Positions 3,264-20,216 of a stretch of 59,124 nt of DNA are shown in pieces. The stretch comes from Streptacidiphilus carbonis. GTDB taxonomy: Bacteria > Actinomycetota > Actinomycetes > Streptomycetales > Streptomycetaceae. The position numbers were made by a program, and so were the translations under genes. The stretch spans positions 1-59,124 of the forward strand of contig NZ_BBPM01000004.1 of NCBI RefSeq assembly GCF_000787775.1, given 5' to 3'. The notes beneath the pieces were generated by a model. That model was not told the origin of the DNA, made no database searches, and was given only the letters and a program-made list of their open reading frames with translations. Within the stretch, counting starts at the first letter, position 1. The number at the start of each line of letters is the position of its first letter.

Positions 3264-4151
3264 CTAGGACTTGCGCGCCCCGTAGACCGGCGCGGGCGGT
3301 TCGGCTGCTGCCAGCAGCTTCCGGGCCGCCTCGCCCGCCTCGACCGGGGTCCAGCGACCGGCGTTGCGCGCGGCGGGGCCGGCCCGCCAGCCCTCCATCA
3401 CCGTGATCCTACCCCCCTCCACCTCGAGCACCCGCCCGGTGACCCCGGCGCTGGCGTCGCTGCCGAGCCACACCACCAGCGGGGACACGTCCTCGGGTTC
3501 GGGCAGCGCGGTGGCGATCGCACCCTCGGTCATCCTGGTCCTGGCGGACGGCGCGATCGCGTTGACCTGCACGCCGTAGCCGGCGAACTCGGCCGCGGCG
3601 ACGAAGGTCAGCCCGAGGATCCCGGCCTTGGCGGCGGAGTAGTTGCCCTGGCCGACACTCCCCTGCAGCCCGGCCCCGGAGCTGGTGTTGACGATCCGTC
3701 CGGCCACCGGCCGCCCGGCCTTGGCCTCGGCCCGCCAGTGCGCGGCGGCCTGCCGCAGCGGCAGGAAGTGGCCGCGCAGATGGACCCGCATCACCGCGTC
3801 CCAGTCGTCGGCGTCCAGGTTGACCAGCATCCGGTCGCGAAGGAACCCGGCGTTGTTGACCAGGGTGTCCAAGCGGCCATAGGTGTCGAGGGCGAGGGCG
3901 ACCAGGTCGGCGGCGCCCTGCTCGGTGGTGATGTCGCCGCCGTGGGCGACCGCCCGGCCGCCGAGCGCCTCGATCTCGGCGACCACGGCTGCGGCGGGGC
4001 TGTCCGGGTCCGGGGTCCCGTCCCTGCCGACGCCCAGGTCGTTGACCACGACCGCAGCGCCCTCGGCAGCGAAGGCGAGCGCATGGGCGCGGCCGAGCCC
4101 GCGCCCCGCGCCGGTGACGATGACGGTACGGCCCTCGGCCAGTCCTGGCAT
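3264..4151 (-). CDS. SDR-family oxidoreductase of the KstR2 cluster (Rv3548c-like)
   Basis: 295-residue classical-type short-chain dehydrogenase/reductase using NAD(P). It shows TGAGRGLG (13-20), NNAG (99-102), Ser157/158 and YSAAK (Tyr171, Lys175). The long insert near the N-terminus (about 40-60) is like the bacterial relatives of the 3-hydroxyacyl-CoA dehydrogenase domain of MFE-2. Its place, second in a leftward pair divergent from echA20-ipdABC, matches Rv3548c-Rv3549c next to echA20 in Mycobacterium tuberculosis, so a role in steroid C/D-ring catabolism is inferred; the substrate is not known. GAAGGAG stands 7 bases before the ATG at 4151. Confidence 0.85.
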   Translation of the reverse strand: MPGLAEGRTVIVTGAGRGLGRAHALAFAAEGAAVVVNDLGVGRDGTPDPDSPAAAVVAEIEALGGRAVAHGGDITTEQGAADLVALALDTYGRLDTLVNNAGFLRDRMLVNLDADDWDAVMRVHLRGHFLPLRQAAAHWRAEAKAGRPVAGRIVNTSSGAGLQGSVGQGNYSAAKAGILGLTFVAAAEFAGYGVQVNAIAPSARTRMTEGAIATALPEPEDVSPLVVWLGSDASAGVTGRVLEVEGGRITVMEGWRAGPAARNAGRWTPVEAGEAARKLLAAAEPPAPVYGARKS

Positions 4152-4179
4152 GGCGGGAGACTCCTTCGGGAGTGGGAGG

Positions 4180-4956
4180 TCAGTGGTTGGCGGTGGCGGC
4201 GTCGAGGAAGGCGGGGCGTTCGCCGCCGCCGTGCAGCAGCAGCGAGGCGCCGCTGATGTAGCCTGCCCGGGGCGAGGCCAGGAAGACCACCGCCTCGCCG
4301 ACCTCGTCCGGCTCGGCGAGGCGGCCCAGCGGGACGGTCCGGCCGACCGCGGCGACTCCCTCCTCGTCCCCGTAGTGCAGCGCCGAGGCCTCGGTCCGCA
4401 CCATGCCGAGGACCAGGGTGTTCACCCGCACCGCCGGGGCCCACTCCACGGCGAGGGTGCGGGCGAGGTGGTCGAGTCCGGCCTTGGCCGCGCCGTAGGC
4501 GGCGCTGCCGGGCGAGGGGCGCGAGCCGCTGACGCTGCCGATCATGACGATCGATCCGCCGTCGGGCTGCTTGCGCATCACCGCGTGCGCGGCCCGCGAC
4601 AGCAGCAGCGGCGCGATCAGGTTCAGCTCCAGGACCCGGCGGTGCCGTTCGGCATCGCCCTCGGCCAGCGGCAGGTAGGGCGTCCCGCCGGCGTTGTTGA
4701 CCAGCAGGTCCAACCGGCCGTGGTCGGCGGCGACCTGCGCCAGCAGCGCCGCCCCGGCCTTCGGGTCGCGTACGTCCAGCGCACGGAACTCGGCCTTGCC
4801 GCCCGGCACTTCGACGCTGGTCGCCGGGGGCCTGCGGGACGCGGCGACCACGACCGCACCGGCCGCGAGCAGCGACCTGGCAATGCCTGCGCCCACCCCG
4901 CGGGTGCCCCCGGTGACCACGGCGACACGGCCGGACAGTTCCTGACGGTGTGTCAT
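4180..4956 (-). CDS. SDR-family oxidoreductase of the KstR2 cluster (Rv3549c-like)
   Basis: 258-residue classical SDR: TGGTRGVG (15-22), NNAG (87-90), Ser141/143 and YGAAK (Tyr154, Lys158). First gene of the leftward two-gene operon, 28 bases before the next SDR. The ATG at 4956 is preceded by AGGGGAG at good spacing; a GTG at 4983 would add nine residues but has no ribosome site. It shares its divergent promoter region, with a KstR2-like palindrome at 5009-5022, with echA20. An oxidation or reduction of a HIP-derived hydroxy/keto acyl-CoA is inferred from context only. Confidence 0.85.
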   Translation of the reverse strand: MTHRQELSGRVAVVTGGTRGVGAGIARSLLAAGAVVVAASRRPPATSVEVPGGKAEFRALDVRDPKAGAALLAQVAADHGRLDLLVNNAGGTPYLPLAEGDAERHRRVLELNLIAPLLLSRAAHAVMRKQPDGGSIVMIGSVSGSRPSPGSAAYGAAKAGLDHLARTLAVEWAPAVRVNTLVLGMVRTEASALHYGDEEGVAAVGRTVPLGRLAEPDEVGEAVVFLASPRAGYISGASLLLHGGGERPAFLDAATANH

Positions 4957-5008
4957 CCGGGGCTCCCCTACCGCTGGTTGCACTGCTACCGTCGACCCTG
5001 ACGTACCT

Positions 5009-5022
5009 AACTAACGTTTGGT
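5009..5022. promoter_or_regulatory. Possible KstR2 operator between the SDR operon and echA20
   Basis: AACTAACGTTTGGT sits in the 87-base gap between the divergent operons. It agrees with the mycobacterial/rhodococcal KstR2 motif AnCAAGnnCTTGnT at 7 of 10 fixed positions and lies in a longer imperfect dyad (CCTAACTAAC...GTTTGGTGG). It is weaker than the site at 13747. That it is an operator is inference. Confidence 0.5.
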
Positions 5023-5043
5023 GGAAAGGTAGCCGAGAATCCC

Positions 5044-5814
5044 ATGGGTGTCTCCACCTCGATCGCCGACAGCACCGGACCGGACGCCGGCATCGCCGTC
5101 GTCACCGTCTCCTACCCGCCCGTCAACGCCCTGCCGGTGGCCGGCTGGTACGAGCTCGCCCAGGCGCTTCGGGAGGCCGGGCAGGACCCCGCCGTCCGGG
5201 TGGTGCTGCTGGAGGCGCCCGGGCGGGGGTTCAACGCCGGGGTCGACATCAAGGAGATCCAGCGCGACCCCGGACCGCAGGCGCTGATCGGCGCCAACCG
5301 GGGCTGCGCCGAGGCCTTCGCCGCCGTCTACGAGTGCCAGGTGCCGGTCGTCGCCGCGGTCCAGGGGTTCTGCCTCGGCGGCGGGATCGGCCTGGTCGGC
5401 AACGCCGACGCGATCGTCGCCTCAGAGGACGCCGTCTTCGGCCTGCCCGAGCTCGACCGCGGCGCGCTGGGCGCGGCCACCCATCTGGCCCGGCTGGTGC
5501 CACCGCACCTGATGCGCCCGATGTACTTCACCGGACGGACCGTCAGCGCCCAGGAGCTGCACCGCTTCGGGACGGTCTGGGAGGTGGTCCCGCGCGAGCG
5601 GCTGCAGGACGCCGCCTTGGCCCTGGCCCGGCAGATCGCCGCCAAGGACGGCTATCTGCTGCGGCTGGCCAAGGAGGCCATCAACGGCATCGACCCGGTC
5701 GACGTCCGCCGCAGCTACCGCTTCGAGCAGGGGTTCACCTTCGAGGCCAACCTCGCCGGCGCCTCGGACGCCCACCGCGAGGCCTTCATCGCGACCGGGA
5801 CGAGGGGCGAGTGA
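5044..5814 (+). CDS. echA20: EchA20-like (6-ring) HIEC-CoA hydrolase, crotonase family
   Basis: 256-residue crotonase. In characterised actinobacteria EchA20 hydrolytically opens steroid ring D in HIEC-CoA to give COCHEA-CoA. The oxyanion-hole segments GRGFNAGVDIK (60-70) and GFCLGGGIGL (108-117), the FGLPELDRGALGAATHL stretch (132-148) and the C-terminal YRFEQGFTFEANLAG read like EchA20 rather than an ordinary enoyl-CoA hydratase. First gene of a rightward operon; its stop overlaps ipdA by 4 bases (GTGA). The order echA20-ipdA-ipdB-ipdC is the same as in M. tuberculosis. Confidence 0.92.
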   Translation: MGVSTSIADSTGPDAGIAVVTVSYPPVNALPVAGWYELAQALREAGQDPAVRVVLLEAPGRGFNAGVDIKEIQRDPGPQALIGANRGCAEAFAAVYECQVPVVAAVQGFCLGGGIGLVGNADAIVASEDAVFGLPELDRGALGAATHLARLVPPHLMRPMYFTGRTVSAQELHRFGTVWEVVPRERLQDAALALARQIAAKDGYLLRLAKEAINGIDPVDVRRSYRFEQGFTFEANLAGASDAHREAFIATGTRGE

Positions 5815-6686
5815 GCGCCATGGACAAGAGGATGAACGCCGACGAGGCCGTCTCCCGGCTCAGCAGCGGAATGACCGTGGGGATCGGTGGCTGGGGTTCA
5901 CGGCGCAAGCCGATGGCCCTGGTCAGGGCCATCCTGCGGGCCGGCCTGCGGGATCTCACCGTGGTCTCCTACGGCGGCCCCGACATCGGCCTGCTGGCCG
6001 CGGCCGGACGGATCCAGCACCTGGTCACCGCCTTCGTCACGCTGGACTCGATCCCGCTGGAGCCGCACTTCCGGGCCGCCCGGGAGAGCGGGGCGCTGGA
6101 GCGGCTGACCGAGTACGACGAGGGCATGCTGCTGCAGGGGCTGACCGCCGCCGCCCACCGGCTCCCCTTCCTGCCGACCCGGGCCGGCCTGGGCTCGGAC
6201 GTGCTGCGGGTCAACCCGGAGCTGCGGACCGTCGTCTCGCCCTACCCCGACGGCGAGGAACTGGTCGCCGTACCGGCGCTGCGGCTGGACGCCGCGCTGG
6301 TCCACCTCAACCGCGCGGACCGGCTCGGCAACGGCCAGTGCCTGGGCCCCGACCCCTACATGGACGACCTGTTCTGCGCGGCCGCCGACACCGCCTACCT
6401 CAGCTGCGAGCGGCTGGTCGACACCGCCGAGCTGCAGAAGGAGGGTCCGCCGGGATCCGTGCTGGTCCCCCGCTGGTCGGTCACCGGCGTGGTGGAGGCG
6501 CCCGGCGGCGCCCACTTCACCTCCTGCGCCCCCGACTACGACCGCGACGAGTCCTTCCAGCGCGCCTACGCCCAGGCCGCCGCGGACCCCTCGGCGTGGG
6601 CGGCCTTCGAGCAGCGCTTCCTCTCCGGGGACGAGCAGGACTACCGGGCCGCCGTGGCGGCCCTGCGGGCGGAGGCGAACCGGTGA
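5811..6686 (+). CDS. ipdA: IpdA, alpha subunit of COCHEA-CoA hydrolase
   Basis: With IpdB it forms a class-I CoA-transferase-fold enzyme that hydrolyses the last steroid ring (ring C) of COCHEA-CoA. 291 residues, close to the family length. GIGGWGSRRKP (24-34) is the N-terminal loop; EYDEGM (101-106) lies where the catalytic glutamate of characterised IpdA (reported near residue 105) is expected. The GTG start at 5811 has GAGGGG upstream and overlaps the echA20 stop; an ATG at 5820 is the alternative (288 aa). The stop overlaps ipdB by 4 bases. Confidence 0.92.
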   Translation: MSAMDKRMNADEAVSRLSSGMTVGIGGWGSRRKPMALVRAILRAGLRDLTVVSYGGPDIGLLAAAGRIQHLVTAFVTLDSIPLEPHFRAARESGALERLTEYDEGMLLQGLTAAAHRLPFLPTRAGLGSDVLRVNPELRTVVSPYPDGEELVAVPALRLDAALVHLNRADRLGNGQCLGPDPYMDDLFCAAADTAYLSCERLVDTAELQKEGPPGSVLVPRWSVTGVVEAPGGAHFTSCAPDYDRDESFQRAYAQAAADPSAWAAFEQRFLSGDEQDYRAAVAALRAEANR

Positions 6687-7456
6687 CCACGTCGACGACC
6701 GGCACCGAACCAGGAGTGAGCAGGGCCGAGTACTGCGTGATCGCCTGCGCCGAGGCCTGGCGCGGGGACGGCGAGGTGCTGGCCGCGGCGATGGGGGTGG
6801 TGCCGACCCTGGGCGCCCGGCTGGCCAAGCTCACCTTCGAACCGGACCTGCTGATCACCGACGGCGAGGCGCTGCTCGCGGCCGACGTCCCCGCGCTCGG
6901 CGCGACCCCGGCGGCGGTGGAGGGCGCGCTGCCCTACCGGAAGCACCTGGAGCTGGTGGCGATGGGCCACCGTCATGTGATGATGGGCGCCGGCCAGCTG
7001 GACCGGCACGGCAACCAGAACATCTCCGCCATCGGCGACTGGTCCCGGCCGGCCCGGCAACTGCTGGGCGTGCGCGGCGCTCCCGGGAACACCGTCAACA
7101 ACCCCACCAGCTACTGGATCCCGCGCCACAGCACCCGGGTGTTCGTAACCGGACGGGTGGACGTGGTGAGCGGAGTCGGACACGGGCGGCTGCACGGTAC
7201 CGCGGGGCGGTTCCAGGACCTCCGACGGATCGTCACCGACCTGGCCGTACTGGACTTCGGCGGCCCGGAGCGGGCGATCCGGCTGGTCTCGGTGCACCCG
7301 GGAGCGACGGTCGAACAGGTGGTGGCCGCGACCGGCTTCCCCCTGGTCCTGCCGGATGCGGTTCCGTCCACCCGCGAACCCTCCGCCGAGGAGCTCCGGC
7401 TGATCCGGGACGTACTCGACCCGCGCGGGGCCCGCGATCGGGAGGTGCGCGGATGA
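6683..7456 (+). CDS. ipdB: IpdB, beta subunit of COCHEA-CoA hydrolase
   Basis: 257-residue CoA-transferase beta-type subunit and partner of IpdA. Recognisable stretches are AEYCVIACAEAWRGDGE near the N-terminus, GHRHVMMGAGQLDRHGNQN, the GAPGNTVNNPTSYW loop and FVTGRVDVVSGVGHGR. The GTG start (6683) overlaps the ipdA stop and the stop (7454-7456) overlaps the ipdC ATG, so four genes are linked by 4-base overlaps, consistent with equimolar expression of the two subunits. Confidence 0.92.
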   Translation: MTTSTTGTEPGVSRAEYCVIACAEAWRGDGEVLAAAMGVVPTLGARLAKLTFEPDLLITDGEALLAADVPALGATPAAVEGALPYRKHLELVAMGHRHVMMGAGQLDRHGNQNISAIGDWSRPARQLLGVRGAPGNTVNNPTSYWIPRHSTRVFVTGRVDVVSGVGHGRLHGTAGRFQDLRRIVTDLAVLDFGGPERAIRLVSVHPGATVEQVVAATGFPLVLPDAVPSTREPSAEELRLIRDVLDPRGARDREVRG

Positions 7457-8535
7457 CCCCGGCCTCCCCGTTCCGGCTGGACACCCCGCTCACCCGGCTG
7501 GCCGGAATCCGCCACCCCGTCGTCCAGACCGGTATGGGCTGGGTCGCCGGCCCCCGCCTGGTCACCGCGACGGCCCGGGCCGGCGGGCTGGGGATCCTCG
7601 CCTCGGCGACCATGACGCCTGATCAACTACGTTCCGCAGTACGAGAGGTGAAGGCCCGCACGGATGCGCCTTTCGGGGTGAACCTGCGCGCCGACACGGG
7701 CGACGCGGCCGAACGCGCCGAGATCATCGCCACGGAGGGCGTCCGGATCGCCTCCTTCGCGCTGGCGCCCTCGCGCGAGCTGATCGCCAGGCTCAAGGAC
7801 GCCGGGGTGGTCGTCATCCCCAGCATCGGCGCGCGCCGGCACGCCGAGAAGGTCGCCGCCTGGGGCGCGGACGCCGTCCTGGTCCAGGGCGGCGAGGGCG
7901 GCGGGCACACCGGCGCGGTCGCCACCACCGTGCTGCTCCCCCAGGTCGTGGACGCCGTCGACATCCCGGTCATCGCCGCAGGCGGCTTCCGTGACGGCCG
8001 GGGCCTGGTAGCCGCGCTCGCCTTCGGCGCGGCCGGCATCGCCATGGGCACCCGCTTCCTGCTCACCTCCGACAGCACCGTCCCCGACGCGGTCAAGTCC
8101 CGCTACCTCGCCGCCGGAGTCCATGACGTCACCGTCACCACCAAGGTGGACGGCCTGCCGCACCGGATGCTCCGCAGCGACCTGGTCACCGCCCTGGAGC
8201 AGGCGGGCCGCACCCGCGCACTGGCCCGGGCGCTGCGGCACGCCGCCGCGTTCCGCGCCGTCTCGGGGCTCTCCTGGTCCGCGATGATCCGCGACGGCCT
8301 GGCCATGAAGCACGGGCAGCAGCTGAGCTGGAGCCAGGTGCTGCTCGCCGCCAACACCCCGATGCTGCTCAAGGCCGCCATGGTCGACGGCCGCACCGAC
8401 CTCGGCGTGATGGCCTCCGGCCAGGTCGCCGGACTGATCGAGGACCTGCCCTCGGTACGGGAGCTGATGGACCGCATCATGGGGGAGGCGGAGGCCGCGC
8501 TGTCGGGTGTGGCGGGGGCGGTGGTGACTGTGTAG
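7453..8535 (+). CDS. ipdC: IpdC, flavin-dependent oxidoreductase (nitronate monooxygenase-like)
   Basis: 360-residue TIM-barrel FMN enzyme of the nitronate-monooxygenase/2-nitropropane-dioxygenase family. Motifs are QTGMGWVAGP (25-34), QGGEGGGHTG (145-154), AAGGFRDGRGL (175-185) and GAAGIAMGTRFL (192-203), which form the FMN phosphate site. In the HIP pathway IpdC is thought to act before EchA20, introducing unsaturation into the bicyclic CoA thioester; here that role rests on position, last in echA20-ipdABC, and sequence type. A palindromic element begins one base after the stop. Confidence 0.9.
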   Translation: MTPASPFRLDTPLTRLAGIRHPVVQTGMGWVAGPRLVTATARAGGLGILASATMTPDQLRSAVREVKARTDAPFGVNLRADTGDAAERAEIIATEGVRIASFALAPSRELIARLKDAGVVVIPSIGARRHAEKVAAWGADAVLVQGGEGGGHTGAVATTVLLPQVVDAVDIPVIAAGGFRDGRGLVAALAFGAAGIAMGTRFLLTSDSTVPDAVKSRYLAAGVHDVTVTTKVDGLPHRMLRSDLVTALEQAGRTRALARALRHAAAFRAVSGLSWSAMIRDGLAMKHGQQLSWSQVLLAANTPMLLKAAMVDGRTDLGVMASGQVAGLIEDLPSVRELMDRIMGEAEAALSGVAGAVVTV

Positions 8536-8536
8536 T

Positions 8537-8676
8537 CCTTCGGGCGCGGCCTGTGCCTGGTCGATCGCGCAGTTCCCCGCGCCCCTGGGGGCTGCAACTG
8601 ACCCACGGCGGGCAAGTTGCACTATCAGGGGCGCGGGGAACGGCGCGACCAGCCATGCACGGCCCGCACCCGAAGG
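8537..8676. repeat. Dispersed palindromic intergenic element, copy 1
   Basis: Two arms of about 62 bases are imperfect inverted repeats: outer CCTTCGGG...CGAAGG, inner GTTCCCCGCGCCCCT against its complement, closing near a short spacer. It fills the gap between the convergent ipdC and DUF5937 genes, one base from each stop. Related copies lie at 36369-36511 and 56397-56530, also between convergent genes. It probably works as a bidirectional terminator; it encodes nothing. Confidence 0.85.
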
Positions 8677-8677
8677 C

Positions 8678-9649
8678 TCAACCCAGCAGCCCGTCCCCCG
8701 CCTCGGTCCGCCGGTACACCACCCGCCGTCCGACCCTGGTACCCACGACCAGTTCGGCCTCCCGCAGAACGCCGAGGTGACCGCCGATCGTGCCGAGCGA
8801 CTGCCCCAGCTGTACAGCGAGCTCGCTGCTCGTGGCCGGCCGGTCCAGCTCCCGCAGGATCCCCGCACGACCGGCGCCGATCAGCCGGTCCAGAGCCCGC
8901 CGGGGCCGGCCCTCCACGGGGCCCGAGGCCGCCCCGCGGGCCGGGTAGACCAGGGCGTACCGGTCGTCCGCGCTCTCGCAGAGCCAGGTGCCGCGGGACA
9001 GGGTCACCGGGACGAACAGGATGCCGTCGTCGCCGATCATGCGGTCGGGGTAGGTCTGGCGGCTGAAGCGGATCGCGTCGGCGCCGACCCAGGCGCTCTG
9101 GCGGCTCATGAACTCCAGCGCCCGGGGCCAGCCGTAGGCGGCCAGCAGCCCGGCCCGGTAGGTGACGTCCCGCTCCAGCAGCGCACGCCGTCGCGGCCAG
9201 TCAGGTTCCACGTAGGTGGTCCATACGTGACGGAACACCTCGACGGCGCGGTCGAACCAGTCCCGGCCGGTGAGCCAGCGCGACAGGTCGTGCTGCTCCC
9301 AGCTCTTCGCCACCGACTCCTCCAGTTCGGCACGTACCTGCTGGTCGGAGAAGGGCGGGAGGGCCGCGACCTCGTCGTCGAAGGCGGTGCGCATCCCGCC
9401 GCGCGGCGGCGCTACGACGAAGCCGGGCAGCCACTTGGTGGAGCTGATCAGCCGGACGAAGCCCTTGGCGAACGGGTCCGCGTCCAGGACGGCCGTGAAC
9501 GCGTCGTGATGGCGGGTGTACCAGGCCGCCATCCACGGGTCGCAGTGGTCCGCGTGCAGCACCTTGATCGAGCCCAGCGTCTCGGCCAGCGGGGACAGTG
9601 CGAACCGGGACCGCGACAGGGCCAGCGGGGTCAGCCGCAGCAGGGTCAT
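8678..9649 (-). CDS. DUF5937/ArsR-type winged-helix regulator
   Basis: 323 residues. The first about 250 form a DUF5937-like domain (LTPLALSRSRFALSPLAETLGS at the start), of unknown ligand. The last about 70 form an ArsR-like winged helix: RAGILRELDRPATSSELAVQ, then LGTIGGHLGVLREAELV as recognition region and wing VGRRVVYRR. GGAGG lies 8 bases before the ATG at 9649. It is divergent from an MFS transporter 59 bases away, so it probably controls that transporter. It interrupts the steroid cluster and need not belong to it. Confidence 0.8.
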   Translation of the reverse strand: MTLLRLTPLALSRSRFALSPLAETLGSIKVLHADHCDPWMAAWYTRHHDAFTAVLDADPFAKGFVRLISSTKWLPGFVVAPPRGGMRTAFDDEVAALPPFSDQQVRAELEESVAKSWEQHDLSRWLTGRDWFDRAVEVFRHVWTTYVEPDWPRRRALLERDVTYRAGLLAAYGWPRALEFMSRQSAWVGADAIRFSRQTYPDRMIGDDGILFVPVTLSRGTWLCESADDRYALVYPARGAASGPVEGRPRRALDRLIGAGRAGILRELDRPATSSELAVQLGQSLGTIGGHLGVLREAELVVGTRVGRRVVYRRTEAGDGLLG

Positions 9650-9708
9650 CTTTCGCCTCCTGCCGAAACAATAGTGCGCGTCCCTCCGGGCCCCGCAGAC
9701 TGCCGCCC

Positions 9709-10992
9709 ATGCCCTCCCTCTCCCTCCAGCGCTTCGCCCTGCTCGGGCTGCCGAACTTCCGCTGGTTCTTCAGCGCACAGCTGGTGTCCCTGCTGGGTTC
9801 GTCGATGGCGCCGGTCGCACTGGCGTTCGCGGTGCTCAACGCCTCGGGGAGCACCGGCGACCTCGGCATCGTCGTCACCGCCCGGATGGTCCCGCTGCTG
9901 GGCTTCCTGCTGCTCGGCGGTGCCGTCGCCGACCGGTTCCCGCGCCGGACGGTGCTGCTGACCGCCAACCTCGGTTCGGGGGTCACCCAGGGCGGGGTGG
10001 CCGTGCTGCTGCTGACCGGGCGCTACTCACTGGCTCCGATCGCCGTACTGAGCCTGCTCAACGGCGTCCTGGACGCCTTCACCACCCCGGCGCTGCGCGG
10101 GGTGGTGCCGCAGTTGGTGGGCCGGGGCCAGCTGCGGCAGGCCAATGCGCTGCTGGGGTCGATGCGCAATGCCACCAAGATCCTCGGCCCCAGCCTTTCC
10201 GGCGTCCTGGTGGTGGCCTTCGGCGGTGGTCCGGCCATCGCCTTCGACGCCCTCACCTTTGTGCTGGCAGCGCTGTGCCTGGTCCGACTCGACCTCAGCG
10301 ACCGGATGCCGGCCGCGCGGGGCACCGGGATTCTGACGTCCCTGCGCGAGGGCTGGACCGGGTTCCGCCGCATCCGCTGGGTCTGGACGGTGGCGCTGTC
10401 CTTCTGTGCGATCAACCTGGTGCAGGTCGGCACCTGGCAGGTCCTCGGCCCCTCGCTCACCAGGCAGGTCAGCGGCGAGGCCGCCTGGGGCTTCGTGCTC
10501 AGCGCCCGGGGCGTCGGGCTGCTGCTGACCAGCGCGCTGATGTACCGGTTGACGGTCCGTCACCTGCTGCGGCTGGGGCAGTCGGTGACGGTCCTGGGGG
10601 CGCTGCCGCTGCTGGCGCTGGGTGCCGGGCTGCACGCCCCATGGCTGATCGCGGCCTCGTTCGTCGCCGGTCTGAGCGCCTCCGTGGTCGGCATCGGCTG
10701 GGACACCTCGCTGCAGGAGCACGTCCCGCCCGAGGTGCTGTCCCGGGTCTCCTCCTACGACGATCTGCTGTCCTATCTGGCCATTCCGATCGGCCAGTTG
10801 AGTGTGGGACCGCTGGCGCACGCCTTCGGCGGCTTCCGGGTGGCCACCGTCGCGGGCATCGTCTACGCCCTCGCGGCCGTGGCCCCGCTCGGCTCGGCCG
10901 CCGTGCGGCGGCTGCCGCACGGCATGGCGAAGGACTCCGGTGGAACGGCCGCCGAACCGCCGACGGCCTCGCTGCCTACAACCGCTCGATAA
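9709..10992 (+). CDS. MFS transporter (drug-efflux type)
   Basis: 427 residues with the hydrophobic pattern of 12 membrane segments; the loop between segments 2 and 3 has the MFS signature GGAVADRFPRRTVL. Closest in type to MFS_3/EntS-like drug or siderophore exporters. The ATG at 9709 is chosen because the sequence MPSLSLQRFALLGLPNFRWFF matches the family start. It is divergent from the DUF5937 regulator. Its 3' end overlaps the 3' end of fadA6, which runs the other way, by 17 bases. A role in steroid uptake cannot be excluded but nothing shows it. Confidence 0.82.
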   Translation: MPSLSLQRFALLGLPNFRWFFSAQLVSLLGSSMAPVALAFAVLNASGSTGDLGIVVTARMVPLLGFLLLGGAVADRFPRRTVLLTANLGSGVTQGGVAVLLLTGRYSLAPIAVLSLLNGVLDAFTTPALRGVVPQLVGRGQLRQANALLGSMRNATKILGPSLSGVLVVAFGGGPAIAFDALTFVLAALCLVRLDLSDRMPAARGTGILTSLREGWTGFRRIRWVWTVALSFCAINLVQVGTWQVLGPSLTRQVSGEAAWGFVLSARGVGLLLTSALMYRLTVRHLLRLGQSVTVLGALPLLALGAGLHAPWLIAASFVAGLSASVVGIGWDTSLQEHVPPEVLSRVSSYDDLLSYLAIPIGQLSVGPLAHAFGGFRVATVAGIVYALAAVAPLGSAAVRRLPHGMAKDSGGTAAEPPTASLPTTAR

Positions 10993-12133
10993 TGGTCACA
11001 TTGGCCTGGCCGCCGCCCTCGCACATGGTCTGCAGGCCGTAGCGGCCGCCGGTGCGCTCCAACTCGTGCAGCAGGGTGGTCATCAGCCGCACGCCGGTCG
11101 CACCCAGCGGGTGCCCCAGGGCGATGGCGCCGCCGTTGACGTTCACCCGGGCCGGATCGGCGCCGGTCTCCTTGAGCCAGGCCAGCACGACCGGGGCGAA
11201 GGCCTCGTTGATCTCCACCAGGTCCATGTCGTCGATGGTCATGCCGGCCTTCTTCAGCGCGTACGCGGTGGCCGGGATGGGGGCGGAGAGCATCCGGATC
11301 GGGTCCTCGCCGCGCACCGAGAGGTGGTGCACCCGGGCGCGCGGGGTCAGGCCGTACTCGGCGACGGCGCGCTCGGAGGCGATCAGCATCGCCGAGGCGC
11401 CGTCGGAGACCTGGGAGGAGACGGCGGCGGTCAGGCGGCCGCCCTCGGTCAGCGGCTTCAGTCCGGCCATCTTCTCCAGGGTGGTGTCCCGGCGCGGGCC
11501 CTCGTCCTGCCGGACCTCCCCGTACGGGGCGATCTGGCGGTCGAAGCGGCCCTCGTCGATGGCGCGGGCAGCCCGCTGGTGCGACTGCAGGGCGAAGCGC
11601 TCCATCTCCTCGCGGGAGATGTCCCACTTCTCGGCGATCATCTCGGCGCCGTGGAACTGGTCCACCGGCTGGTCGCCGTAGCGCTCACGCCAGCCGATCG
11701 AGCCGGCGTACGGGCCCTCGGTGAGCCCCAGCGGCAGGGCGGCCTCGCGCGAGGAGTAGGCGATCGGGATCTGCGACATGCTCTGGGTGCCGCCGGCCAC
11801 CACCAGGTCGCTGGTCCCCGACATCACGGCCTGCGCGGCGAAGTGCACCGCCTGCTGCGAGGAGCCGCACTGGCGGTCGATGGTCACACCGGGCACCTCC
11901 TCGGGCAGCCCGGCCGCCAGCCAGCTGGTCCGGGCGATGTCCCCGGCCTGCGGGCCGACGGTGTCCAGGCAGCCGAAGACCACGTCCTCGACCAGCGCCG
12001 GGTCCACTCCCGACCGCTGGACCAGCGCCTTCAGCACATGGGCGCCCAGGTCGGCGGGGTGGGCGGACGCCAGGCCGCCGCGGCGACGGCCGACGGGGGT
12101 GCGGACGGCTTCGACGATGTAGGCCTCGGGCAT
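10976..12133 (-). CDS. fadA6: FadA6-like acetyl-CoA acyltransferase (thiolase)
   Basis: 385-residue thiolase. The nucleophile is Cys89 in IDRQCGSS; NEAF, GGAIALGHPLGATG (catalytic His) and MCEGGGQAN (second Cys, about 371) are all present. In HIP catabolism FadA6 cleaves the CoA thioester released after IpdAB ring opening, shortening the chain by two carbons. It lies 84 bases downstream of kstR2, as Rv3556c lies next to Rv3557c. GGAGG lies about 9 bases before the ATG at 12133. Confidence 0.88.
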   Translation of the reverse strand: MPEAYIVEAVRTPVGRRRGGLASAHPADLGAHVLKALVQRSGVDPALVEDVVFGCLDTVGPQAGDIARTSWLAAGLPEEVPGVTIDRQCGSSQQAVHFAAQAVMSGTSDLVVAGGTQSMSQIPIAYSSREAALPLGLTEGPYAGSIGWRERYGDQPVDQFHGAEMIAEKWDISREEMERFALQSHQRAARAIDEGRFDRQIAPYGEVRQDEGPRRDTTLEKMAGLKPLTEGGRLTAAVSSQVSDGASAMLIASERAVAEYGLTPRARVHHLSVRGEDPIRMLSAPIPATAYALKKAGMTIDDMDLVEINEAFAPVVLAWLKETGADPARVNVNGGAIALGHPLGATGVRLMTTLLHELERTGGRYGLQTMCEGGGQANVTIIERL

Positions 12134-12217
12134 GGTGGTCGTTCCTCCTGCTGGGTGGGGGCTGTGGGCTGGGACGGGGGGCTGCGGCCGGGGCTGCGGC
12201 CGGGGGCTGGGACGGTC

Positions 12218-12835
12218 TCAGGGGCGGGTCGTCGTCGAGATGCCGTCGAGCAGCATGCTCAGGTACTGCCGGGCGATCTCGGCGGCGTCGTGGCGGCCGC
12301 CCGGCCGGTACCAGGAGGCGGCCACCCACACCGTGTCGCGGACGAAGCGGTACACCAACCGTAGGTCGAGGTCGGCCCGGAAGGCCCCCTCGGCGACGCC
12401 ACGCTCCAGCGTCCCCTGCCAGGCGGCCTCGAAGCGGTTCATCGAGTCGGTCAGGTAGCCGAACCTCGGCTGCCCGGCGAGATGGCGTTCGCGCTGGTAG
12501 ATGGCGACGGCGTCGCGGTGCCGGTCGATCTCCCGGAACGACTCGACGACCAGTGCCTCCAGGGTCTCCCGGGGGCCGAGACCTGCCGAGAGCACCGCGT
12601 CGTAGCCGGTCCAGAGCTCGTCGAGGAAGCCGGAGAGGATCTCGTCCAGCATCGACTCCTTGGAGTCGAAGTGGTAGTAGAGGCTGCCGGCCAGCATGCC
12701 GGCGGCATCGGCGATCTCGCGAACGGTGGTGGCGTCGTAGCCCTGTCTGGCGAACACCTGAGCGGCTGTGGCCAGCAGCTCGTCCCGCCTGGTGGCCGGG
12801 GCGGCCGCTGCCGTTGTCGGCCGGGACGTCGTCAT
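12218..12835 (-). CDS. kstR2: KstR2, TetR-family repressor of HIP catabolism
   Basis: 205 residues. The N-terminal TetR helix-turn-helix spans about 17-62 (TTVREIADAAGMLAGSLYYHFDSKE). The ligand domain carries KstR2-like stretches: QPRFGYLTD, LRLVYRFVRDTVWVAASWYRPGG and QYLSMLLDGIS. KstR2 represses the steroid C/D-ring genes and is released by HIP-CoA. It is flanked by ipdF upstream and fadA6 downstream on the same strand, like Rv3557c. GAGGAG precedes the ATG at 12835. Confidence 0.93.
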   Translation of the reverse strand: MTTSRPTTAAAAPATRRDELLATAAQVFARQGYDATTVREIADAAGMLAGSLYYHFDSKESMLDEILSGFLDELWTGYDAVLSAGLGPRETLEALVVESFREIDRHRDAVAIYQRERHLAGQPRFGYLTDSMNRFEAAWQGTLERGVAEGAFRADLDLRLVYRFVRDTVWVAASWYRPGGRHDAAEIARQYLSMLLDGISTTTRP

Positions 12836-12880
12836 CGCGGGTCTGCTCCTCGTAGCGGGTGCTGGGTCAAGGTTGCTGGG

Positions 12881-13705
12881 TCACGGGTGCTGGCTGCTGA
12901 CGGAGACGACCTCGCCCGTCAGATAGGACGAGTATCCGCTCGCCAGGAAGACGATGACGTTCGCCACCTCCCACGGCTCGGCCCAGCGGCCGAAGGCCTC
13001 CCGCGCGGTCAGCTCCTCCAGCAGCTCCGGCGTGGTGACCTTGGCCAGGTGCGGGTGCATCGCCAGGCTCGGCGCGACCGCGTTGACCCGTATCCCCAGG
13101 TCGGCGGCCTCGACGGCGGCGCAGCGGGTCAGCGCCATCACCCCGGCCTTCGCCGCCGCGTAGTGGGACTGCCCGGCCTGGGCCCGCCAGCCCACCACCG
13201 ACGCGTTGTTGACGATCACCCCGGCACCCGCCCCGGTACTCGGACCAGTACTCGCTCCGGCGGCGCCGCGGGCCCGGAACCGGCGCAGCGCCGCGCGGGT
13301 GCAGCGCATGGTGCCGGTGAGGGTGACGTCCAGGACCCGGTCCCACTGCTCGTCGGTCATCTCCTCCAGGGTCGCGGTGCCGCCCAGGCCGGCGTTGTTG
13401 ACCAGGATGTCGAGCCGGCCGTGCCGTGCCTCGGCCAGCTCCAGCAGCGCGGCCACCTGCTGCTCGTCGGTGACGTCGCAGACCGTGCCGGCCACCCGGT
13501 CCGCGCCGAACTCCCCGGCCAGCGCCTCGACGGTCTCCTTGAGCCGGCGCGCATGGGCGTCGCCGAGGACGACCTCGGCGCCCTCCTCCAGGAACCGCCG
13601 CGCGGTGGCGCCGCCGATCCCGGCCCCGGCCGCGGCCGTGACCACGGCGCTGCGACCGTTCAGCAGCCCATGTGCTGACGGGTAGTCAGGTGATGCGTTC
13701 GCCAC
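12881..13705 (-). CDS. ipdF: IpdF-like SDR dehydrogenase
   Basis: Classical SDR, 274 residues from the GTG at 13705 (VANASPDYPSAHGLL); a GTG at 13738 would add 11 residues but lies nearer the operator. Motifs are TAAAGAGIGGATARRF, NNAG and NNASVVGWRAQAGQSHYAAAKAG with Ser, Tyr and Lys of the catalytic triad. In the pathway IpdF oxidises the 5-hydroxy group of the bicyclic CoA thioester. Between the active-site helix and the Ser strand is a Gly/Ala/Ser/Thr-rich insert (RARGAAGASTGPSTGAGAG) that looks lineage-specific. Divergent from the fadE31-like gene; upstream of kstR2. Confidence 0.85.
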   Translation of the reverse strand: MANASPDYPSAHGLLNGRSAVVTAAAGAGIGGATARRFLEEGAEVVLGDAHARRLKETVEALAGEFGADRVAGTVCDVTDEQQVAALLELAEARHGRLDILVNNAGLGGTATLEEMTDEQWDRVLDVTLTGTMRCTRAALRRFRARGAAGASTGPSTGAGAGVIVNNASVVGWRAQAGQSHYAAAKAGVMALTRCAAVEAADLGIRVNAVAPSLAMHPHLAKVTTPELLEELTAREAFGRWAEPWEVANVIVFLASGYSSYLTGEVVSVSSQHP

Positions 13706-13746
13706 CGGGCCCACCTCTCGACGGCCGACTCCTCGCACGTTAACCT

Positions 13747-13760
13747 ACCAAACACTTGTT
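13747..13760. promoter_or_regulatory. KstR2 operator between ipdF and the fadE31-like gene
   Basis: ACCAAACACTTGTT matches the KstR2 motif AnCAAGnnCTTGnT at 9 of 10 fixed positions and lies inside the dyad CCTACCAAACACTTGTTAGG (13744-13763). It covers the divergent promoter of ipdF-kstR2-fadA6 and the fadE pair. Binding is inferred from the motif and the presence of kstR2. Confidence 0.75.
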
Positions 13761-13781
13761 AGGGAAGGAGGACCTGCGGTG

Positions 13782-14933
13782 ATGGACCTTCGGATCAGCG
13801 GCGCGGACCAGGAGTTCCGCGACGAGGCCAGGGACTGGCTGCGCCGGCACGTCCCCGCGCACCGGCTGCCCTCGCTGGAGACCGGGCCCGGATTCGCCGC
13901 CCACCGCGCCTGGGAGCAGGAACTCCACGCGGACCGCTGGTCCGTGGTCTCCTGGCCGCGGCAGTACGGCGGCCGGGACGCCTCGCTGCTGCGCTGGCTG
14001 CTCTTCGAGGAGGAGTACTACGCCGCCGGGGCGCCGGGGCGGGTCAGCCAGAACGGCATCAATCTGCTGGCCCCGACCCTGTTCGAGCACGGCACCGGCG
14101 AGCAGCGGGCCCGCATCCTCCCGGAGATGGCGAGCGGGGCGACCGTCTGGGCCCAGGCCTGGTCCGAGCCGGGCGCCGGCAGCGACCTGGCCGCGCTGCG
14201 CTCCACCGCCCGCCGCGCCGACGGCGGTTGGCTGCTGGACGGGTCCAAGACCTGGTCCTCCCGGGCCGCCTTCGCCGACCGCGCCTTCGGCCTGTTCCGG
14301 TCCACCCCGGTCGAGGAGTCCGGGGCCCGGCACCGCGGCCTCACCTATCTGATGTTCCCGCTGGACGCACCGGGGGTGACGGTGCGCCCGATCGGACGGC
14401 TGGACGGCAAGCCGGCCTTCGCCGAGATCTTCCTGGACGGCGTGTTCGTGCCGGACCGCGATGTGATCGGCGAGGCCGGGCGGGGCTGGCGGGCCGCGAT
14501 GAGCACGGCCGGCAACGAGCGCGGACTGACCCTGCGCAGCCCGGGGCGCTTCCTGGCCGCGGCGGACCGGCTGGTGGCTCTGTGGCGCCGGCTCGGCGAC
14601 CCCGGTGACGCCGCGCTCGCCGAGCGGGTCGCCGACGCCGTGATCGGCGCGCGGGCCTACCAGTTGTCAGCCTTCGCGGCGGCCTCCGGCGAGGGCGGGC
14701 CGACCGGGGCCGCGTCCAGCCTCAACAAGCTGCACTGGTCCGAACTGGACCTGACGCTCCATGAGACGGCGCTCGACCTGCTGGGCCCGGAGGGCGAGTT
14801 GGCCGATGCGGAGGAGTGGTCCGAGGGCTATGTCTTCGCCCTCGCGGGGCCGATCTACGGCGGCACCAACGAGATCCAGCGGGACATCGTCGCCGAGCGG
14901 CTGCTCGGCCTGCCGAAGGGACGGCGCGGATGA
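13782..14933 (+). CDS. fadE31: Acyl-CoA dehydrogenase, FadE31-like
   Basis: 383-residue FAD acyl-CoA dehydrogenase. AQAWSEPGAGSDLA (124-137) is the FAD/substrate signature. Near the end YGGTNEIQRDIVAERLLGL (from 359) has Gly where MCAD has its catalytic Glu (YEGT), so the base must be elsewhere or in the partner. Long stretches (SWPRQYGGRD, FEEEYYAAGAPGR, NERGLTLRSPGRFLA) resemble FadE31 of the KstR2 regulon, which forms a heterotetramer with FadE32 and acts late in HIP degradation. The ATG at 13782 has AAGGAGG 10 bases upstream; the GTG at 13779 is an equal alternative. Overlaps the next gene by 4 bases. Confidence 0.82.
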   Translation: MDLRISGADQEFRDEARDWLRRHVPAHRLPSLETGPGFAAHRAWEQELHADRWSVVSWPRQYGGRDASLLRWLLFEEEYYAAGAPGRVSQNGINLLAPTLFEHGTGEQRARILPEMASGATVWAQAWSEPGAGSDLAALRSTARRADGGWLLDGSKTWSSRAAFADRAFGLFRSTPVEESGARHRGLTYLMFPLDAPGVTVRPIGRLDGKPAFAEIFLDGVFVPDRDVIGEAGRGWRAAMSTAGNERGLTLRSPGRFLAAADRLVALWRRLGDPGDAALAERVADAVIGARAYQLSAFAAASGEGGPTGAASSLNKLHWSELDLTLHETALDLLGPEGELADAEEWSEGYVFALAGPIYGGTNEIQRDIVAERLLGLPKGRRG

Positions 14934-15871
14934 GGTTCCTCCTCGACGCCGAGCAGCGGGGCTTCGCCGCCAGCCTGGACGCGCTGCTCTCCGCCGCCGA
15001 CGTCCCCGCCGTGATCCGGTCCCGCGCGGCGGGCGACGACGCACCGCTGCGGGCGCTCTGGCGGCGGCTGGCCGACGTCGGGGTGTTCGCGCTCGCGGTG
15101 CCCGAGACGTACGGCGGCACCGGGCTGCTGCCGGTCGAACTGGTGCTCAGCTGCGTCGAACTGGGACGCCACGGGATGCCGGGACCGCTGGCCGAGACCT
15201 TCGCCGCGAGCACCCTGCTGGAGTCGGTCGGGCAGACGGCGCTGCTCCCCGGGGTGGCGTCGGGGCAGGTGATCCTTTCCCTGGCGGCCGAGGGCGGCTA
15301 CGCGGCCGACCCCGACCTGGCGGACGCGGTGCTGCGCGTCGGCGAAGGAAAGGCACCGCTGCGGCAGTCCCTGGACCCGGCCCGCCGGGTCGGACTGCCC
15401 GAGGACGCGATCGCCGTGGAGTCCGGCGCCGAACGCGCCACCGGGCTGGCCGCCCTCTGTACCGCGGCGCTCGCCCTGGGGACCGGGCGCCACCTGCTCG
15501 CCGCGACCGTCGAGTACGCCAGGACCCGCACCCAGTTCGGCACCCCCATCGGCGGCTTCCAGGCGGTCAAGCACCGGCTCGCCGACGTACTGCTCCAACT
15601 CGACTTCGCCGAACCGCTGTTGTACGGCGCGGCGGTGGCCCTGCAGGATGCCCTGCCGAGCGCCGGCAGCGATATCGCCGCGGCGAAGGCCGCCTGCGGC
15701 GAGGCCGGCTATGCCGCCGCCCGGGCCGCGCTGCAACTGCACGGCGCGATCGGCTACACCGACGAGTTCGACCTCTCGCTGTGGATCCGCCGGGCCCGGG
15801 TGCTGCGCAACGCCTGGGGCACGCCGTCCGCCTGCCGCCGCAGGGTCCTGGCCGGCCGGATCGACGGATGA
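14930..15871 (+). CDS. fadE32: Acyl-CoA dehydrogenase, FadE32-like partner subunit
   Basis: 313 residues, about 70 shorter than a full acyl-CoA dehydrogenase and close to FadE32/FadE33. It keeps the N-terminal helical domain (VPETYGGTGLLPVELVLSC) and the C-terminal FAD domain (YARTRTQFGTPIGGFQAVKHRLAD, LQLHGAIGYTDEFDLSLWIRRA) but has a shortened middle beta domain. Translation is coupled to the fadE31-like gene through ATGA (14930-14933), as expected for an alpha2beta2 enzyme. The reaction proposed for this pair is dehydrogenation of MOODA-CoA. Confidence 0.8.
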   Translation: MRFLLDAEQRGFAASLDALLSAADVPAVIRSRAAGDDAPLRALWRRLADVGVFALAVPETYGGTGLLPVELVLSCVELGRHGMPGPLAETFAASTLLESVGQTALLPGVASGQVILSLAAEGGYAADPDLADAVLRVGEGKAPLRQSLDPARRVGLPEDAIAVESGAERATGLAALCTAALALGTGRHLLAATVEYARTRTQFGTPIGGFQAVKHRLADVLLQLDFAEPLLYGAAVALQDALPSAGSDIAAAKAACGEAGYAAARAALQLHGAIGYTDEFDLSLWIRRARVLRNAWGTPSACRRRVLAGRIDG

Positions 15872-17721: not shown

Positions 17722-18927
17722 TCAGTTCTCCAGTGCGGCCAGGCCGGGGAGGGTCTTGCCCTCCAGGTACTCGAGGCTGGCGCCGCCACCCGTCGAGATG
17801 TGTCCGAACTTCTTCTCGTCGAAGCCCAGGATGCGGACGGCTGCGGCCGAGTCGCCGCCGCCGACCACCGAGAACGCGTCGCCGTCGGCCAGCGCCTCGG
17901 CGACGGCCCGGGTGCCCGCGGCGAAGTCCGGGTGCTCGAAGACGCCCATCGGGCCGTTCCAGAACACCGTCGCCGCGTCCGCCAGCTTGGCCGCGAACAG
18001 CTCGCCGGTGGCCGGGCCGAGGTCCAGGCCGATCTTGCCGGCCGGCATCGCGTCGGCGGCGACCACCTCGAAGTCCTCGACCGGGGTCTTGGCCTTCAGA
18101 TCGGGGAAGCTCGCGGAGACCGCGACGTCGACGGGGAGCACGAACTCCACGCCGTTCTTCTCGGCGCGCGCCAGGTACTCCAGCACGACCGGGATCTGGT
18201 CCTCCTGCAGCAGGCTGCTGCCGACGTCGTGGCCCTGCGCCTTGAGGAAGGTGAAGGCCATGCCGCCGCCGATGAGGATCCGGTCGGCCTTGCCCAGCAG
18301 GTTGTCGATCACGCCGAGCTTGTCGGAGACCTTGGAGCCGCCGAGCACCACCACGTAGGGGCGCTCGACCTGCTCGGTGAGCCGCTTGAGCACGCCGACC
18401 TCGGTGGCGATCAGCAGGCCGACGGCGTGCGGCAGCCGGGCCGGCAGGTCGAAGACGGAGGCGTGCTTGCGGTGCACGGCGCCGAAGCCGTCGCCGACGT
18501 AGAGGTCCGCCAGGGCCGCCAGCCGGTCCGCGAAGGCGCCGCGCTCGGCGTCGTCCTTGCTGGTCTCGCCCGCGTTGAAGCGCAGGTTCTCCAGCAGCGC
18601 GACCTGGCCGTCCTTGAGGGCGGCCGTGGTGGCGGCGGCGCTGTCGCCGACGGTGTCGGTCGCGAAGGCGACGTCCTGGCCGAGGATGGCGCCTAGGCGC
18701 ACCGCGACCGGCGCCAGGCTGTACTGCGGGTCGGGCGCGCCCTTGGGACGGCCCAGGTGGGAGGCGACGATCACCTTGGCGCCGGCCGCGGCCAGCTTGG
18801 CGATGGTCGGCGCGACGGCGCGGATCCGGCCGTCGTCGGTGATGTCGGTGCCGGACAGCGGCACATTGAGGTCGGCGCGGACGAACACCCGCTTGCCTGC
18901 GACGTCGAGGTCGTCGATGGTCTGCAC
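17722..18927 (-). CDS. pgk: Phosphoglycerate kinase
   Basis: 401 residues, normal for bacterial Pgk. RADLNVPL and SHLGRPKG near the N-terminus bind 3-phosphoglycerate; [19 protein letters not shown] and [12 protein letters not shown] mark the nucleotide side. Substrate-level ATP formation in glycolysis. GTG start at 18927 with AGGAG 9 bases upstream. A strong hairpin lies between gap and pgk, so pgk-tpiA may be transcribed less than gap or from its own promoter. Confidence 0.98.
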
Positions 18928-18979
18928 GTCAGAACGCTCCTGGGGAGGTGGTACGACGGATGGAGGTGGGTCATGAGAA

Positions 18980-19011
18980 CAGGACCCGGACCTTTCGAAG
19001 TCCGGGTCCTG
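18980..19011 (-). terminator. Hairpin between gap and pgk
   Basis: A perfect 12-base-pair stem (18980-18991 with 19000-19011) closes an 8-base loop containing TTCGAA. It lies directly after the gap stop on the minus strand and probably terminates or attenuates the gap transcript before pgk. Confidence 0.65.
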
Positions 19012-19040
19012 CTCCGTCTACTTCTCTTCCGCGCAGCTCG

Positions 19041-20216
<1,176 letters not shown>

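Follow-up and report, generated by a model that had tools for sequence, protein, structure and literature searches.

Gene content of the cluster

The DNA analyzed here (hereafter the window) comprises positions 1 to 59,124 of contig NZ_BBPM01000004.1, a stretch of 59,124 nucleotides from the draft assembly of Streptacidiphilus carbonis (8.46 Mb in 139 contigs, listed completeness 99.88). Positions 3264–15871 hold a cluster that, as judged from its sequence, represents a cassette of the KstR2/HIP (steroid ring C/D) type (Table 1). An initial annotation, made from the letters alone, had proposed this gene list and order, and both were borne out by curated models and matches to PDB chains; its assignment of the genes to the KstR2 regulon is likewise supported by the orthology of IpdA, IpdB, and KstR2 and by operator-like sites at two divergent promoters. 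For comparison, we used 40 loci (L047–L086) of 12–20 kb each, picked from IpdA matches in the family Streptomycetaceae, 13 of them from the genus. Gene calls in these other loci were heuristic, with starts often wrong, and the identity thresholds applied to them were set by the analyst. Labels beginning with G and L denote genomes and loci.

Table 1. Predicted genes and other features of the cluster and the evidence for each. SDR, short-chain dehydrogenase/reductase; CoA, coenzyme A; MFS, major facilitator superfamily.
Feature	Positions	Strand	Evidence or remark
SDR, Rv3548c-like	3264..4151	-	PRK07791, 427 bits (cut-off 373); present in 39/40 family loci
SDR, Rv3549c-like	4180..4983	-	PRK07856, 372 bits (cut-off 255); present in 36/40 family loci
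KstR2-type operator ACCAAACGTTAGTTAGGT	5005..5022	-	39 bases upstream of echA20; predicted from sequence only; compare the KstR2 motif in the excerpt of PMC3068626
EchA20, proposed ring-D hydrolase	5044..5814	+	PRK07938, 411 bits (cut-off 260)
IpdA, COCHEA-CoA hydrolase alpha subunit	5820..6686	+	6co6, E 2.4e-98
IpdB, COCHEA-CoA hydrolase beta subunit	6683..7456	+	6co6, E 1.2e-89
IpdC-type FabK-like flavoprotein	7453..8535	+	FabK model, 240 bits, below cut-off 453; adjoins ipdB in 40/40 loci
Inverted repeat, 51-nt arms, 84% complementary	8537..8676	.	between ipdC and the ArsR-MFS insert; terminator-like by position
ArsR/HTH_20 regulator, inserted	8678..9649	-	HTH_20 above cut-off; in 2/40 loci (L050, L056)
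MFS transporter, inserted, start uncertain	9598..10992	+	TIGR00900, 193 bits, below cut-off 320; L050 and L056 only
FadA6 thiolase	10976..12133	-	PRK07801, 709 bits (cut-off 591)
KstR2 repressor (TetR)	12218..12835	-	2ibd, E 9.4e-65; named KstR2 chains, ~1.1e-56
IpdF	12881..13738	-	PRK07831, 425 bits (cut-off 336)
KstR2-type operator ACCAAACACTTGTTAGGG	13747..13764	+	between ipdF and fadE31; predicted likewise
FadE31-like acyl-CoA dehydrogenase	13779..14933	+	start GTG 13779 or ATG 13782; 66-70% identity to the fadE31-position gene of four Tsukamurella loci
FadE32-like acyl-CoA dehydrogenase	14930..15871	+	NF050027, 117 bits

Identity of the encoded proteins

The next family to match IpdA and IpdB after the chains listed in Table 1 was glutaconate CoA-transferase, at E values of 1.3e-24 and 4.3e-13, respectively. 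The glutamate replaced by alanine in entry 6coj is retained in IpdA. In IpdB, a glycine takes the place of the Glu in the ESG motif of glutaconate CoA-transferase 1poi; according to the excerpt of PMC5380842, such a glycine distinguishes IpdAB from true CoA transferases. For KstR2, where the named chains are 4w1u and 4w97, the next TetR protein followed only at E 9.5e-22. EchA20, FadA6, IpdF, and both SDRs all scored above curated NCBIfam cut-offs, and we take the PRK models concerned to correspond to the Rv35xx genes.

In a tree of 60 IpdA rows (all trees here are quick ones, with Shimodaira-Hasegawa-like approximate likelihood ratio test [SH-aLRT] values as the sole support), the window grouped with Streptacidiphilus jeojiense and G010 (100%), and this group fell within a larger one of 28 streptomycete rows (86%). 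Of the streptomycetes that carry upper-pathway genes, three (G363, G230, and Streptomyces sp. NBC_00841) nest among those 28 rows, and a fourth, G024, groups with the rearranged clusters of G001, G011, G012, and G013. The 6co6 and 6con chains (RHA1/M. tuberculosis) formed a separate long branch with Nocardia. Placement outside the characterized clades, which the initial annotation had named as evidence that would count against it, was not seen for IpdA in this tree, the deep splits of which are weak (74%).

The two acyl-CoA dehydrogenases also agree with their first description as a FadE31/FadE32 pair. With NF050027, the IpdE2 model, the FadE32-position gene of Tsukamurella scored 117 bits, the same as the window gene, and its next neighbor scored 300; the model's cut-off of 450 was reached by no gene in 21 genomes or records. 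Although the small FadE protein matches NF050027 and Tcur3481, the pair was rejected as the side-chain dehydrogenase IpdE1-IpdE2 (the former FadE30/FadE33), as the small protein scores as FadE32 and the Tcur chains are far from FadE31 and FadE30.

Operator-like sites and selection

The excerpt of PMC3068626 gives the mycobacterial KstR2 motif as AnCAAGnnCTTGnT, located at three promoter sites, whereas the S. carbonis cluster has two such sites, of which ACCAAACACTTGTTAGGG resembles the Rv3560c/Rv3561 probe printed there. When the whole genome was scanned with up to one mismatch, the ACCAAACGTTAGTTAGGT and ACCAAACACTTGTTAGGG sites were the sole matches, and a reversed-pattern control gave no match in this genome and one across all 14 genomes of the genus. 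Because the pattern was derived from these loci, its matches within the cluster arise by construction, and the new information is that there is none elsewhere in the genome. On an 18-point score, on which unrelated stretches often reach 13–15 and a few reach 16–17, 35 of the 40 loci have a site of 17–18 points upstream of echA20. In 32 of these 35, a further site of 16 points or more precedes ipdF or fadE31; L083 lacks one, and L071 and L076 end before that region. The cluster is rearranged in the remaining five loci, four of which have a site of 18 points upstream of ipdA.

The pathway genes gave ratios of nonsynonymous to synonymous substitution (dN/dS, NG86 method, against S. jeojiense and G010) of 0.06–0.31, and the ArsR and MFS genes gave 0.32–0.45, on a scale that is rough, since tpiA itself gave 0.30–0.50 as a result of its low dS.

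Ring-A/B and side-chain genes

In family-wide scans, for which the best four to six first-look candidates were scored per genome, nine of the 394 genomes had HsaA, a marker of ring-A/B degradation, above its cut-off; none of the nine belongs to the genus, and all of them have a strong IpdA match. No HsaA match at 1e-100 was found in any of the 14 genomes of the genus, S. carbonis included (four candidates scored in each). KshA had no match at 1e-3 in the S. carbonis genome, with all first-look candidates scored, and was present in just one of the 14 (G011). The suggestion that the organism uses steroid C/D rings or an analogous bicyclic compound stands as a capacity predicted from sequence. 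It does not extend to a working steroid pathway, since neither HsaA nor KshA was matched in the genome at these thresholds. For the most part, the cluster appears to represent a lower pathway that lacks its upper counterpart, and in most of the carriers sampled this lower pathway seems to be decoupled from ring-A/B degradation.

Genes for the HIP side chain show a related pattern. Within the cluster, as judged from the loci examined and model scores, fadD3, fadE30, fadE33, and an echA13-like gene were not found. Orthologues of FadE30, defined by ≥76% identity, are carried by 24 of the 394 genomes, comprising 8 of the 9 HsaA-positive genomes (all except G296) versus 16 of the 196 other genomes with strong IpdA (Fisher p 9e-8, uncorrected for descent); the latter 16 show that FadE30 can persist without HsaA. 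Outside the cluster, contig C78 of S. carbonis carries the genome's best NF050027 match (151 bits), scored in the search for FadE33, as well as a FadD3-family CoA ligase (L311, G000:C78:6000-25900, ~17820-19431; 704 bits, cut-off 657) at a locus that includes thiolase-like proteins and an acyl-CoA dehydrogenase. This ligase is a candidate for an unlinked activation step. According to the excerpt of PMC5380842, an unlinked FadD3 homologue has been noted in Steroidobacter denitrificans, and for this reason the absence of fadD3 from the cluster lowers, and does not end, the case for KstR2/HIP membership. When the surroundings of orphan cassettes were screened for a conserved ligase, oxygenase, or transporter, the output was apparently mostly antisense open reading frames (ORFs).

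Distribution in the Streptomycetaceae

In the family-wide scans, IpdA matches at E ≤1e-30 were obtained in 224 of the 394 Streptomycetaceae genomes, and all 14 genomes of the genus had a match; 19 of the 224 were weaker than 1e-36 and the remainder were 1e-100 or better, leaving 205 genomes with strong IpdA. The cluster is not, as had been supposed, unusual for a streptomycete, since about half of the sampled family carries one elsewhere in the genome, and we likewise rejected the idea that it is specific to this site or genus. Among the 40 loci, echA20 and ipdABC were found in all 40, the first SDR in 39, ipdF in 37, the second SDR in 36, fadA6 in 35, fadE31 in 34, kstR2 in 31, fadE32 in 30, the echA13-like gene in 22, FadE30 in 3, and FadD3 in none, some of the absences being edge effects (e.g., L048, L068, L070, L071, and L076).

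Several variants of the cluster were observed. A rearranged "type B" ipd cluster with an operator upstream of ipdA occurs at L047, L057, L058, L059, and L067 (G001, G011, G012, G013, and G024), and G001 has in addition an ipdF (83%) that stands apart and has an operator of its own. In many Actinomadura genomes (loci L203–L239), the SDR-SDR-echA20-ipdABC block lies beside differing genes, with fadA6-kstR2-ipdF-fadE30 nearby in some only. A pair encoding an SDR and an Abhydrolase_3 esterase lies near an extra KstR2-type operator in three genomes (L194, L195, and L196), directly beside it in G009, ~3 kb downstream in G003, and at ~2 kb in G001, where a luciferase-like monooxygenase accompanies it. 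This pair is a possible extension of the KstR2 regulon; it had no match at 1e-50 in the S. carbonis genome.

The pgl-tpiA site

The cluster is flanked by a gene for a mycothiol-maleylpyruvate-isomerase-type protein before it and by tpiA after it; for the neighbors opcA, pgl, pgk, gap, secG, and rbpA, we assume the names given in the initial annotation or in general use. The position between pgl and tpiA is the odd part of the cluster, and it is common to two other species, with a remnant in a third. Besides the window, pgl and opcA flank the cassette in 2 of the 40 loci (L050 and L056). In G001, another Streptacidiphilus (L187, G001:C1:6621000-6640900, ~3671-5649), kstR2 and fadA6 are the sole cassette genes in the same interval; they are 86% and 91% identical, respectively, to their window counterparts and are accompanied by an operator-like site with one mismatch. 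In the trees of FadA6 and KstR2, the sequences from the four genomes that have cassette genes at this position form one clade (99% SH-aLRT support in each tree), with a warning of long branches elsewhere in the KstR2 tree. Because of this common clade, the simplest reading is one insertion followed by later decay in G001.

A tree of four neighboring proteins (opcA, pgl, tpiA, and pgk) placed the window, G001, G011, and G012 together with 100% support. In G012, a single small ORF was called in the pgl-tpiA interval, and different genes occupy the other intervals listed. The interval varies among the seven relatives with listed ORFs, which supports the proposal that it is a hot spot for insertion. 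Nor does the cluster appear to be ancestral to the family at this position, the outcome said beforehand to be damaging, as the other loci examined lack it there. None of the ORFs listed in these intervals was recognized as pgi, although no search was aimed at pgi. The cluster itself is split by the divergent ArsR-MFS pair (8678–10992) between ipdC and fadA6. This pair, which follows the inverted repeat (8537–10992 in all), was found, besides the window, only in G004 and G010 among the 40 loci.

Proposed function and alternatives

From the identity of the genes, their key residues, the operator-like sites, the dN/dS values, and the lack of matches to HsaA and KshA, we consider it probable, with some reserve, that the cluster is a functional KstR2-controlled module degrading hydrindane (steroid ring C/D) acyl-CoAs, kept without a ring-A/B pathway and fed by HIP-type acids. 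Repression of the two divergent promoters by KstR2 would be relieved when it binds a HIP-CoA-like ligand. The input would most likely be HIP or similar acids that other organisms release as they degrade steroids, and the incoming acid would be activated by an unlinked CoA ligase. For the side chain, unlinked enzymes may act, or the substrate may be 3'-OH-HIP or a compound without such a side chain. We infer the ligand, substrate, and cross-feeding, as well as the reaction order, which would follow by analogy from work on mycobacteria and RHA1. Excerpts of the literature supply some precedent: excreted-intermediate cross-feeding is discussed for bile-acid degraders (PMC8399759), R. equi without fadE30 accumulates 5-OH-HIP (PMC3161971), and FadE30 may be dispensable for 3'-OH-HIP (PMC6678751). 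Complete steroid clusters within the family carry the same cassette beside HsaA and KshA, which we count in favor of a role in HIP degradation. HIP use is also favored by a 1977 report, as cited in the excerpt of PMC5380842, on a streptomycete that grew on HIP and accumulated MOODA.

Several observations weigh against this proposal. The HIP side-chain genes of other actinobacteria, fadD3, fadE30, and fadE33, are not in the cluster, and scoring for FadE30 at 1e-120 gave no match across the genus (14 genomes, 4 candidates per genome; for S. carbonis, 4 of 39). The genome-wide operator scan placed no linked operator at the unlinked C78 ligase, no transporter for HIP-type input was found, and the dN/dS scale is as rough as noted above. 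The lack of side-chain genes would be explained if the substrate were a non-steroid bicyclic acid without a propionyl chain that enters at the level of HIC-CoA, such as a plant or microbial 1-indanone-4-carboxylate, of which we take coronafacic acid to be an example. The concentration of FadE30 in HsaA-positive genomes and the near absence of FadD3 and FadE30 from the 40 loci fit this alternative, as does the crotonase retained at the echA13 position in 22 of them. However, that crotonase has been lost from the window, no conserved ligase or amidase was found adjoining the cassette, a literature search at the level of titles returned nothing relevant on coronafacic acid degradation, and the 1977 streptomycete report cited in the excerpt of PMC5380842 concerns HIP. 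We regard a non-steroid substrate as unlikely. It is also rather doubtful that roughly half of the Streptomycetaceae carry a stand-alone KstR2-type ring-opening module, lacking both the HIP side-chain enzymes and the ring-A/B pathway, for the use of a widespread non-steroid bicyclic acid of this kind, with the mycobacterial steroid C/D pathway being a specialized use of an older hydrindane module.

Degradation of whole steroids by unlinked or divergent ring-A/B enzymes that our searches missed is very unlikely: although nine family genomes combine HsaA above cut-off with strong IpdA and the S. carbonis assembly is a draft in 139 contigs, its listed completeness is high, no HsaA match at 1e-100 was found in the 14 genomes of the genus with four candidates scored per genome, and the single KshA match, with all first-look candidates scored, is not in S. 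carbonis. Slightly less probable again, and likewise very unlikely, is that the cluster is a decaying relic of a transfer that is now out of use. The loss of the echA13-like gene and the reduction of the G001 site to kstR2 and fadA6 are the kind of change such decay would bring, but the genes are open with dN/dS of 0.06–0.31, the operators are retained, and IpdA is matched in every genome of the genus.

The conserved ring-C/D gene set, together with the seeming lack of genes for opening the first two steroid rings, suggests that many Streptomyces relatives feed on ring fragments left by others, or on a similar two-ring compound, and we regard the decoupling from ring-A/B degradation as the more interesting part of the result. 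A survey of steroid-degrading organisms reported no steroid pathway for 55 of 57 Streptomyces genomes (PMC4810484, in excerpt). If about half of the family has a working lower pathway, streptomycetes could be overlooked soil consumers of HIP-type fragments or users of an unrecognized bicyclic substrate. The cluster would then be a candidate genetic basis for the growth on HIP reported in 1977, and its carriers would be potential non-pathogenic hosts for the study of ring-C/D chemistry. In a narrow literature search, the passages mentioning Streptomyces in PMC5380842, PMC6678751, PMC4810484, PMC8399759, and PMC5790920 did not describe this family distribution.

Comparison with known systems

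The S. carbonis cluster shares SDR, SDR, echA20, ipdABC, fadA6, kstR2, ipdF, fadE31, and fadE32 with the KstR2 regulon of mycobacteria and Rhodococcus jostii RHA1, as set out in the excerpts of PMC5380842 and PMC3068626, and in both, one operator lies at the SDR/echA20 promoter and another at the divergent promoter that precedes fadE31. The S. carbonis cluster differs in lacking fadD3, fadE30, and fadE33, in its ArsR-MFS insert, in that no ring-A/B marker was found in the genome, and slightly in its operator half-sites, which read CAAAC for CAAGC. Six Tsukamurella and Nocardioides loci, some of which end inside the cluster, follow the mycobacterial order, with fadE30 in 6/6 and fadD3 in 5/6; the echA13-like gene and fadE31 are present in all four Tsukamurella loci.

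Within the family, a plasmid of Streptomyces sp. NBC_00841 (NZ_CP108854.1) carries the same cassette in the same order, with 55–86% protein identity. It additionally encodes fadE30, an echA13-like gene, a FadD3-family ligase, HsaA and HsaD above their cut-offs, a KshA-domain protein, and HsaC- and KstD-like genes below theirs. This complete-looking steroid cluster (L091, L093, and L094) resides on a linear plasmid of 1.5 Mb that was typed as mobilizable. Another close counterpart is that of S. jeojiense NRRL B-24555 (L050 and L201), which has the same cassette, pgl-tpiA site, and ArsR-MFS insert, with 83–97% identity over the cassette genes compared. There, the stretch from ipdF to fadE31 still contains the echA13-like gene; the window has lost this gene and retains the operator and the bases that follow it.

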